A DNA stretch of 64,000 nt, from positions 1-64,000 of the forward strand of contig NZ_BSOB01000062.1 in NCBI RefSeq assembly GCF_030160295.1, read 5' to 3'. Position numbers and translations under genes: made by a program. This DNA comes from Dyella acidisoli (GTDB lineage: Bacteria > Pseudomonadota > Gammaproteobacteria > Xanthomonadales > Rhodanobacteraceae). This document shows, piece by piece, positions 23,823 to 26,161 of the stretch. The stretch's first letter is position 1. Each line of letters begins with the position of its first letter. The notes under the pieces were generated by a model. It had not been told where the DNA came from and ran no database searches. It saw only the letters and a program-made list of their open reading frames with translations.

Positions 23823-24272
23823 TTACGCAGCGCGCGGATAGCGTTTCAGCGTTTGCATTTCGTCGAAACCTTCCCGCACCGAAGCGTATGCGCTCTGCAC
23901 CACCGTGCGCGAAAACCAGGAGAGCCGTCCGTCCTCCAAGGCGCACTCATACTTCGCCTTGACGTGCTCTTCGCCACGCTCCACTTCGTCAACCAACGCA
24001 CTGTAGCCATAGTCCATCGCGTGACGAAGATTACCGAACACATGGCATGCACGGACCGCAGACGCCCCCTCCACCCGGCGATCATCGCTGATCGCCTCAA
24101 GCCGATGCTGCAAGGTCTGTGCAACCTTCCTGCGTTGCGTCGAAAGATCCTCGAACACGGCACGAATGCGTGGATTGCCGATATTGCACGCCACTTTCCG
24201 ATAGTGTCTGGAGCTTTCCAGTGTCGCACCCACCAGGCCATGGAGGATGCTGACGTCATCATCTGCGTTCAT
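23823..24272 (-). CDS. PA2169/DUF2383-type four-helix protein
   Basis: 149 residues beginning MNADDDVSILHGLVGATLES. The pattern of an N-terminal DDVSILHGLV helix, internal FEDLSTQRRKVAQTL, and a C-terminal segment with ARTVVQ/ASVREGFDEMQ-like helices is that of the PA2169 family of ferritin-like helical bundles (DUF2383). Members are usually stress-induced and of unknown biochemical role. The start at 24272 was chosen because the family begins at this motif; eight upstream codons are probably untranslated. It lies alone in the small-gene zone. Confidence 0.75.
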   Translation of the reverse strand: MNADDDVSILHGLVGATLESSRHYRKVACNIGNPRIRAVFEDLSTQRRKVAQTLQHRLEAISDDRRVEGASAVRACHVFGNLRHAMDYGYSALVDEVERGEEHVKAKYECALEDGRLSWFSRTVVQSAYASVREGFDEMQTLKRYPRAA

Positions 24273-24943
24273 AAGCTTACTCCCCAGGTAGAACATTGCT
24301 GGCTTGGTACGCTGATAGTGAATCCACCGCTGTTTAGCAGTGGATTACAAGACGTAAAAATTCTTCTTATAGGCGAAATATCTGCACGTTTTAGCCCTCG
24401 CCAAGCGTCATCTTTATCAGCATCTACCTTCGGGAAAGCGCAGCTTTCATCGCAACGTTTCCTTGGGTAATAAGCACCTACTGTTTTTGCAGGATCAAAG
24501 ACGAAACCGGAAAGCAATTCCTCCTGGCAGGCAGAGAGGAAGACGTTCCTCGCATGTGTACAGATATCTGTACCCCGGGAATGGGGGAGACTCACGTCAG
24601 ATATCGTTCCAACGCAACAAGGCAGTGCAGCTGAGAGCAACGACGAATGACGCTGCGTTCGGCACGCTAGTGGTAAACGCTAAGACAGTTCCCGCGAATG
24701 ACGGCCGCCCTCACCCCCATGCAGCCGGGACCATGACATACGATATTTGGAAGCTGCAGATGCTGCGGCGCGTGGTCAAACGTCAACCGACCAACACGTG
24801 AAAGTGGGCCGTGGACAGAGGCCGTAGGAAGCAATGATGCCTCCCACGGCCTCATCTCGTTTCGGCACCTGGACCGATATATACGCGCGCCAATCCGCCT
24901 CCTCCCCATTCGAGGAAGCGGATCGGCCGCGCTGGCTTTTCGC
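24273..24943. other. Intergenic region with a 16-base palindrome
   Basis: About 670 bases with no supportable gene. It contains the perfect palindrome GTACAGATATCTGTAC at 24559-24574 and a hairpin GAGGCCGT/ACGGCCTC at 24818-24853. The short open frames here have neither ribosome sites nor recognisable products. Confidence 0.5.
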
Positions 24944-25192
24944 TTAGTGCGCGGGAGCCGTCGAAGCCGGTGCTGGCGCAGGTGCAGCGCCTGCTGCAGT
25001 ACCGCTGGCCGGTGGCGTCATGGCGGTGTGCGAAGGCGCCGGTGCTGCGGGAGGCGGATTAGCGGGCGCTGCCGGTGTAGCCGCGGTAGACGAACTGCCT
25101 GGCGCAGCCCCGCCGCCATTGTTCGGGTTGTTGCATCCGCCGATGGCCAAGCCAATACAGGCGACTGCGATACCAAGTGCCGTGCGATTCAT
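24944..25192 (-). CDS. Small Ala/Pro-rich lipoprotein
   Basis: 82 residues starting MNRTALGIAVACIGLAIGGC, a lipoprotein signal with the lipidated Cys at position 20. The mature part is almost wholly low complexity (Gly, Ala, Pro, Ser, Thr), probably an extended surface or periplasmic tether. AGGAGA precedes the start at 25192; seven more codons are open upstream but lack support. No function can be given. Confidence 0.7.
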   Translation of the reverse strand: MNRTALGIAVACIGLAIGGCNNPNNGGGAAPGSSSTAATPAAPANPPPAAPAPSHTAMTPPASGTAAGAAPAPAPASTAPAH

Positions 25193-25434
25193 GATTTTCT
25201 CCTGACGTGACATGTGATTTTTCGCGTCTTGGCCGAATGGGCCGTAACCGCCTTCGACTGCTTCTCACGGCCTCGGCCGTGCATCTCACTTAACGATTAC
25301 CAGCCTCACCTTGATCTCCTTGTATGCAAGGCTTTGTGCAGTAATTGTCAACGTACCGTTGCAAAAACAGAATGAAAGCTAACAAATCGCCCGATTTACC
25401 CCGCTAGAAGGGGTTTTAACTGAACGGATACTCA
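25193..25434. other. Upstream region of the lipoprotein gene
   Basis: No gene found. AT-rich patches at 25330-25390 may hold promoters, and a weak ACCCC/GGGGT hairpin followed by TTTT lies at 25398-25417. Confidence 0.35.
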
Positions 25435-25662
25435 TCACGTATGTACCGCTGCCCGTCTGTAAACAAATCGTAACGCCAGATCCGCTCCCCCACGGGCACT
25501 GACCTTGTCGCCCCTGATCTGCGGCAGGGGAGCAAACCGTTCCAGGGCTATCGGCACAACACCGAGCGGCAAACCAGGATGTCCACTGTCGGCCTTCTGC
25601 ATCACGTCGACGGTCAGAAGATGGATCGTATCGATGCAGGACTGATCGAGCTGAGAAAACAT
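25435..25662 (-). pseudogene. Transketolase N-terminal remnant
   Basis: The 75-codon frame begins MFSQLDQSCIDTIHLLTVDV and continues MQKADSGHPGLPLGVVPIAL, which matches the N-terminus of transketolases, including the SGHPG substrate-binding motif. After about residue 40 similarity stops and the rest looks like random translation, whereas the true enzyme needs about 650 residues. Only roughly bases 25543-25650 are recognisable. It is therefore a decayed fragment, left by a deletion or a partial transfer. It lies 29 bases downstream of the metallothionein-like gene on the same strand. Confidence 0.7.
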
Positions 25663-25691: not shown

Positions 25692-25853
25692 TCAGACGCT
25701 CTGCTCAGCGTTGCACTCTTCGTGCTCACAACTGCATGGTTTACCTTCCGCGGGCAGTTTGTCGGCCTCAAGGCAGTAATCGCTGCAATACTGCCCTGCT
25801 TCTGGCACCTTGCACACGCAAGGTCCGTAGGCGCACTTGTGATCGATCTGCAT
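25692..25853 (-). CDS. Metallothionein-like cysteine-rich small protein
   Basis: 53 residues. The start is MQIDHKCAYGPCVCKV, followed by QYCSDYCLEADK, with KPCSCEHEECNAEQSV at the end. Eight cysteines (7, 12, 14, 23, 27, 40, 42, 47) and two histidines lie in the order of bacterial SmtA/BmtA metallothioneins: a CxxxxCxC knuckle, the central YCSxxC of the zinc-finger-like part, and a late CxCxHxxC. Such proteins sequester zinc, cadmium or copper in the cytoplasm. A stop codon precedes the ATG in frame and no other start exists. The ribosome site is poor. It is shorter than usual gene-calling limits and lies opposite an unrelated longer open frame, so it is easily missed. Confidence 0.72.
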   Translation of the reverse strand: MQIDHKCAYGPCVCKVPEAGQYCSDYCLEADKLPAEGKPCSCEHEECNAEQSV

Positions 25854-26032
25854 GCCGAGGGTGCCTCTAATCTACCGGAGCATCTAGCTACAGATGCACA
25901 ATGCAATGCGGGTAGTTTTTATGAAGTGAAGATGAGATCGCCGCAATGGAGACCGTGGTGCTGGCGCTTTGCGAAAAATTCGGCCCGATCCTGTTGCAGC
26001 GTCCACCCAGTCTTCGTTAAGACAAGGAGACG

Positions 26033-26161
26033 ATGGAATCATTTCTGTTGCAGCTTCCGCATGACAGCGAAAAGTTGGCCGATGTAGAACGGAATCACGA
26101 CCACAGCATTGCTAAAGCTGTGGTGAAAGCAGACCGCAAGCGCACCCCTGAACCCAGGTAA
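26033..26161 (+). CDS. Small hypothetical protein
   Basis: 42 residues, MESFLLQLPHDSEKLADVER and a Lys/Arg-rich end (KAVVKADRKRTPEPR). No domain is recognised. The AAGGAGA ribosome site five bases before the ATG is strong, which favours a real gene despite its length. Confidence 0.45.
   Translation: MESFLLQLPHDSEKLADVERNHDHSIAKAVVKADRKRTPEPR

Follow-up and report, generated by a model that had tools for sequence, protein, structure and literature searches.

A conserved gene for a small cysteine-rich protein in Dyella acidisoli, related to SmtA-type bacterial metallothioneins

Within a stretch of 64,000 nucleotides from Dyella acidisoli (the window), a short open reading frame encodes a protein unusually rich in cysteine. 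The locus raises the question of whether this frame, which is overlain by longer ones, is a gene, and if so whether its product is a bacterial metallothionein. The frame lies on the minus strand, and its translation from ATG to TGA is MQIDHKCAYGPCVCKVPEAGQYCSDYCLEADKLPAEGKPCSCEHEECNAEQSV. The 53-residue protein has cysteines at positions 7, 12, 14, 23, 27, 40, 42, and 47 and a histidine at position 44, in the order C-x4-C-x-C ... YC-x3-C ... C-x-C-x-H-x2-C. The first-pass annotation had located the gene correctly without naming a strand, and a new reading of the minus strand gave exactly the 53 residues and eight cysteines that it described. The longer frame that it reported on the opposite strand is also present, and its remark that such a short frame falls below the usual length cut-offs is plausible. 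The plus strand over 25692-25853 encodes an unrelated frame. The 121-residue frame on that strand has SLT_3 as its best Pfam match, which is sub-threshold (E 0.0029), and the 175-residue frame on the gene's own strand gave no match in a Pfam search. All features are listed in Table 1.

Table 1. Position of the gene, its putative signals, the overlying frames and the neighboring features in the window.
Feature	Position	Strand	Basis or remark
Metallothionein-like gene, 53 codons	25692..25853	minus	Frame list and conservation in relatives
Start codon ATG; stop codon TGA of the metallothionein-like gene	25853-25851; 25694-25692	minus	Read from the sequence
AGAGG, Shine-Dalgarno-like	25864..25868	minus	10 nt ahead of the ATG; read directly from the sequence
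Upstream element CTTCACTYCANNNAAACNNNCNNCNTNGCAT, 31 bases	25901..25931	minus	Comparison of four Dyella orthologues
Overlying longer frame, 121 aa	25722-26087	plus	Frame list
Overlying longer frame, 175 aa	25379-25906	minus (the gene's own strand)	Frame list
Transketolase relic, first 40 residues only	25543..25662	minus	Matched to the full-length D. monticola gene
DUF72 relic, residues 102-164 only	25958..26146	plus	52% identity to the DUF72 protein near the D. monticola orthologue
Small proline/alanine-rich lipoprotein-like frame	24944..25213	minus	Named by eye; no Pfam match; gene order the same in D. monticola
DUF2383 protein, syntenic neighbor	23823..24296	minus	PF09537, E 3.3e-12

Evidence for a gene comes from its relatives. 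A search of 100 genomes (that of D. acidisoli and 99 relatives) gave 23 matches, and the eight cysteines and His44 are kept in all of them, although the mean column identity is only 30%. In the alignment behind the family profile (A1), which contains all 23 matches, the only invariant columns are the start methionine, the eight cysteines and His44, and in a further alignment (A5) they are the eight cysteines and His44 alone. The loci retrieved by the searches with A1, a subset of all family matches, gave 43 distinct sequences. The full pattern is present in 41 of these, and one other has all eight cysteines plus an extra one but lacks the aromatic residue before C23. The last, from genome G006 of the window's own genus, is disrupted by a change of frame past its first codons. 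The adjacent transketolase gene is intact, and the break is either a sequencing error or a recent loss.

Four Dyella orthologues could be compared codon by codon. The six pairs among them have dN/dS of 0.11-0.19 (Nei-Gojobori), and the differences between G000 and G004 fall mostly on third codon positions (9, 11, and 22 at positions 1, 2, and 3). No replacement is found in the nine presumed ligand codons in any of the six pairs, compared with pN of 0.14-0.24 and pS of 0.48-0.69 in the other codons. One frame opposite the gene also stays open in all four orthologues, and an open frame alone could therefore not discriminate; the codon-position pattern did. These comparisons show purifying selection on the gene.

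The region ahead of the gene is conserved as well. The Shine-Dalgarno-like AGAGG is found at an equal distance in G004 and G012, and G014 has GGAAG. Three of the four Dyella orthologues have the upstream element without a mismatch, and G004 differs from it only at the first base. The element occurs as a single copy in the D. acidisoli genome, and no known promoter type was recognized in it. It is a candidate promoter or regulator site.

A chance open frame without function might have been suspected here, as the frame is short, shares its place with longer frames on both strands, and encodes a protein that itself matches no profile. This reading is already refuted by the conservation data: it would have to account for relatives in at least 89 of 233 Rhodanobacteraceae genomes, for the low dN/dS, and for a Shine-Dalgarno-like site and an upstream element common to four orthologues. 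The first-pass annotation had named lack of conservation, lost cysteines or in-frame stops in related species as evidence that would speak against the gene. What was found is a frame kept in relatives together with its eight cysteines, and 25692-25853 is a genuine gene.

The distribution of the gene is narrow. The window's own family is Rhodanobacteraceae, the D. acidisoli genome is counted in every survey made with A1 and A5, and all occurrence counts from these two profiles are lower bounds. The 23 matches in the 100 genomes come from 17 genomes, all of them among the 60 of the same family, with none in the 40 from other families of the order. With A1, the gene was found in at least 89 of 233 genomes and 14 of 26 genera of Rhodanobacteraceae, in at least 38 of 299 genomes in a sample of the order, and in at least 3 of 398 in a sample of the phylum; all 38 and all 3 belong to Rhodanobacteraceae. 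A sample of the class searched with A5 gave at least 7 of 369 genomes, namely the D. acidisoli genome and six weak matches outside the family (E 1e-4 to 9e-3). These six were rejected, as they lack the eight-cysteine pattern even when it is relaxed. The A1 set is too little conserved for a DNA-pattern scan, for which the closer set A2 was used. This gave six named loci, in Dyella nitratireducens, D. monticola, D. acidiphila (two loci), Frateuria sp., and Rhodanobacter sp. Within the samples searched, the family is found only in Rhodanobacteraceae. No relatives were found in plasmid, phage and IMG/VR collections, and there is thus no sign of a mobile gene. The gene is not described in the titles and abstract openings of open-licence papers on metallothionein with Rhodanobacter or Dyella. 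By the same parts of the papers, it is also absent among the matches listed for metallothionein, Rhodanobacteraceae, Luteibacter, and Frateuria. In another family of the class, a short frame (L097, genome G1124) has the first half of the motif only, C-x4-C-x-C ... YC-x3-C, and is possibly a minimal zinc knuckle.

The surroundings of the gene have changed more than the gene. In D. monticola, a full-length transketolase gene (681 codons) lies 36 nt downstream on the same strand. The two genes are also adjacent in G012, in G006, and at both loci of D. acidiphila. Tests of seven further loci found no transketolase; two of these loci are from the window's genus, and two (L053 and L060) are the same place. 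Only residues 619-678 of transketolase remain in D. nitratireducens. The window thus keeps the start of transketolase and D. nitratireducens its end, the opposite part being lost in each, while the small gene stayed intact. A tblastn search of the 64-kb window with Ku and LigD from D. monticola gave no match. Together with the DUF72 relic, this makes it seem that an island has been eroded around the gene.

A survey of neighbors covered 22 regions, nine of them from the window's genus including the window, using BLAST grouping with Pfam names for some members. In raw counts, DUF2383-like and DUF4142-like proteins each recur in seven of the 22 regions, in three genera each. The DUF2383-like cluster had at first been counted in nine regions, and was reduced to seven because two long frames had probably been linked by chance. 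DUF892, Ku, DUF72, Nramp and a pyruvate-oxidase-like enzyme are neighbors in single or few regions. Of these neighbors, DUF2383, DUF4142, DUF892, Ku, and DUF72 are of a stress type, and on the raw counts the surroundings have the flavor of a general-stress island. No metal transporter or metal regulator was recognized near the gene in the window, where eight frames were compared with Pfam and the others were inspected by eye.

Profile libraries do not recognize the protein: neither Pfam nor NCBIfam gave a match at E≤10. The first-pass annotation had proposed a search with the bacterial metallothionein family PF02069 (Metallothio_Pro). At E≤10 this profile does not match the protein, which does not reach the curated cut-off of 33 bits; 13 of the 23 family members match it weakly, with a best E of 0.039. 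In the protein's own genome PF02069 matches two other places only (E 3.0 and 3.9). No genome of 230 Rhodanobacteraceae has a match over the cut-off, with two matches below it, and two of 274 do in a sample of the class. The best Pfam E among the 23 relatives is 0.0068, for zf-FLZ in a single member. When the family profile was compared with structures in the PDB, its best match was SmtA (1jjd), with E 0.56 for the whole sequence and 3.4 for the best stretch. Seven cysteines and His44 are in register in this alignment, and C40 is unpaired.

Cysteine-rich proteins look alike by composition, and two controls were therefore run, one on profile scores and the other on hhalign alignments, each with full shuffles and with shuffles that keep the cysteines fixed. 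Four true metallothioneins score 30.2-36.7 bits with the A1 profile, SmtA having 31.4 and L064 36.7. No full shuffle attains the real score (2000 per metallothionein), and with the cysteines fixed it is attained by 0/2000 for SmtA, 0/2000 for L064, 8/2000 for L065, and 4/2000 for L073. In the reverse test, with a profile of the four metallothioneins, 18 of the 23 family members score above all 300 of their cysteine-fixed shuffles, and for the other five between 1 and 16 of the 300 reach the real score. Against full shuffles, 22 of the 23 members have 0/300 and one has 1/300. Alignment of the family with the four metallothioneins by hhalign gives a probability of 95.4 and a score of 44.2. The best score after column shuffling is 30.7 in 150 cysteine-fixed shuffles and 17.9 in 150 full shuffles, so that none of the 300 reaches the real one. 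By these two controls, it is well supported that the family shares ancestry with SmtA-type metallothioneins, beyond what its cysteine content would give.

The family nevertheless differs from SmtA in three respects. SmtA from Synechococcus (PDB 1JJD, PF02069) has the motifs C-x-C-x2-C-x-C, a 15-residue linker, YC-x3-C, and C-x-H-x2-C near the end, and shares with the family its small size, the YCxxxC motif, the first and third cysteines of the first motif, and C-x-H-x2-C near the end. The central motif is retained here as YCSDYC; an aromatic residue precedes its first cysteine in 42 of the 43 distinct sequences, of which 41 were picked by a pattern requiring it and the other is the G006 copy. 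The linker between CxC and YC is shortened from 15 to 8 residues in 36 of 41 family sequences and 9 in the other 5. At the C-terminus, we take SmtA to end its motif with a further cysteine (C-x-H-x2-C-x-C). Compared with this CxHxxCxC, the protein here has CSCEHEEC (CxCxHxxC), the last cysteine being lost and one gained two residues earlier. It has eight cysteines in all, compared with nine in SmtA.

The remaining difference is in the first motif, where CxCxxCxC in SmtA corresponds to CAYGPCVC here, with tyrosine in place of the second cysteine. Of 42 readable family sequences, 33 have His at this position, 7 have Tyr, 1 has Asn, and 1 has Arg. All eight sequences of the Tyr or Asn types have a histidine two residues before the first cysteine, compared with 1 of 32 His types. 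This suggests that the conserved histidine may be a substitute ligand in the Tyr types. The eight sequences are related to each other, so the co-variation may reflect one event.

Comparison with other metallothioneins places these changes in context. L064 (genome G863, from the window's class) matches PF02069 over the cut-off with 48.9 bits and starts with CAHVECRC, so the change from Cys to His is not foreign to that family; unlike the proteins described here, it keeps the long linker and ends with CAHAGCEC. The mycobacterial copper metallothionein MymT (NF052418) is small and cysteine-rich, like the present protein, and has a different cysteine spacing. The Pseudomonas metallothioneins (PflQ2 MT and PmtA) have a long linker, and share the SmtA-type cysteine order with the family. 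They have nine cysteines (PMC7387436), compared with eight here, and the Zn3Cys9His cluster of PflQ2 MT is described as a case where a ligand set with one histidine works (PMC7387436).

AlphaFold was used to predict the structure of the protein, based on 38 of 41 family sequences. The model has a mean pLDDT of 81.9 and a pTM of 0.60, and contains short predicted strands at 5-6 and 15-16 and helices at 25-32 and 45-51. A Foldseek search of the model against the PDB found no metallothionein, and gave five matches, all with E 7 to 10 (best E 7.0). As a yardstick, a true metallothionein (L073 with two relatives) was modeled, with pLDDT 65.0. Its matches ranked 1-4 in the PDB are three Pseudomonas metallothionein entries and SmtA, with E 0.02-0.06; these share 38-50% residue identity with it, which accounts for part of the success since Foldseek also weighs identity. 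Because the control succeeded, the negative result is informative, and tends to speak against a close SmtA fold. Strands 21-23 and 26-28 of the control are absent from the window model, which matches the shortened linker, and the second helix of the window model is absent from the control. The models suggest that the fold may have diverged from that of SmtA; on this contrast, it would retain the knuckle and first helix of SmtA and lack the linker hairpin. The proposal in the first-pass annotation of a bacterial metallothionein with altered spacing stands in part: the shuffle controls and hhalign support relatedness to SmtA beyond cysteine content, but PF02069 does not match, two of the three cysteine motifs differ, and the structure comparison did not retrieve SmtA. 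The gene is real, conserved and SmtA-related, and is not a formal member of PF02069.

Nine invariant ligands, with little else conserved, and SmtA ancestry point to a miniprotein that holds zinc or cadmium. Judged from its sequence, the protein is probably a diverged SmtA-type bacterial metallothionein, which would act as a Zn/Cd buffer, perhaps in starved cells. The pairs C7/C12 and C23/C27 would be the counterparts of the cysteines framing what we take to be the zinc-finger site of SmtA, and C14, C40, C42, H44, and C47 would form a second, probably clustered site. Histidine takes the place of the second SmtA cysteine in most sequences; in the Dyella type it is tyrosine, with the histidine two before C7 perhaps substituting. 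SmtA holds Zn4 with Cys9His2 (PMC10119931). Set against this and the Zn3/Cys9His of PflQ2 MT, the Cys8His available here would be expected to bind about two to three Zn(II) or Cd(II) ions in total.

The main rival is a small two-zinc finger of SmtA ancestry, treble-clef-like, in which a Cys4 site (C7, C12, C23, and C27) and a Cys/His site drawn from C14, C40, C42, H44, and C47 would belong to a structural or regulatory adaptor and not to a metal buffer. We regard it as a serious rival, if an unlikely one. Nine invariant ligands are enough for two four-ligand sites, and the predicted model shows a knuckle hairpin and two helices, which begin just past C23 and just past H44. The five Foldseek matches include YacG and zinc-finger domains, but every one of them has E of 7 or more. 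Weak Pfam matches point the same way, with DUF2116 ('probable treble clef') in 4 of 23 members (best E 0.26) and the zf-FLZ match in one. Almost nothing is conserved beyond the ligands, which favors the holding of metal over a surface for binding a partner. It is far less probable that the protein is a Cu(I)-binding metallothionein like MymT rather than one for Zn/Cd. It is certainly cysteine-rich, and MymT NF052418 matches more family members than any other NCBIfam model, but only weakly (3 of 23, best E 0.59), and it does not match the 53-residue protein. In its conserved histidine ligand and its spacing the protein resembles the Zn/Cd type of SmtA, and no copper gene was recognized by eye beside the gene.

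For the preferred reading, a Zn/Cd-binding metallothionein, the closest precedent for a function is in Pseudomonas. The metallothionein of P. fluorescens is induced in stationary phase and aids survival of long-term starvation, and is reported not to be involved in resistance to metals or in the response to oxidative or nitrosative stress (PMC7387436). The precedent therefore supports a function in starvation and not in general stress. By this analogy, use of the protein in stationary phase or starvation is most likely. From the neighbors and the Pseudomonas metallothionein, it would be a small zinc/thiolate buffer of stationary phase, and not part of a metal-efflux operon. The zinc binding of bacterial metallothioneins is stated to be in the picomolar to femtomolar range (PMC10612145), as would be fitting for a store of the metal. 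The chances are about even that the family is a separate Rhodanobacteraceae subfamily of SmtA-derived metallothioneins, missed by current profile libraries, which would serve as a stationary-phase zinc buffer replacing the canonical metallothionein. In such a subfamily the linker hairpin would have been lost and the ligands reshuffled: Cys would have given way to His and then to Tyr, compensated by a His two residues ahead of the first Cys, and the last Cys would have moved upstream.

Few bacterial metallothioneins have a tested function; the 2020 account of the P. fluorescens protein names two before its own (PMC7387436). A profile search may undercount them, as PF02069 finds two of 274 genomes in the class and none of 230 in the family, compared with the 89 or more of 233 family genomes that carry the related gene. 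Studies of how the ligand determines zinc affinity and stoichiometry could also make use of the series of natural ligand swaps in this family (Cys, His, and Tyr with a distal His).

Rhodanobacter, another host of the gene, is known from metal-contaminated ground. In Rhodanobacter sp. T12-5 (L060:5378-8204), the family member is divergent from an operon led by an ArsR-type regulator. Behind the regulator lie genes for a glyoxalase-fold protein and an SBF (ACR3-like) transporter, with an arsenate-reductase-like frame between them. We read this as an operon of the arsenic type, and the names ArsC and ACR3 are part of that reading. The glyoxalase-fold protein has a cysteine-rich tail of its own, SCCGP...CGPSSGCC.
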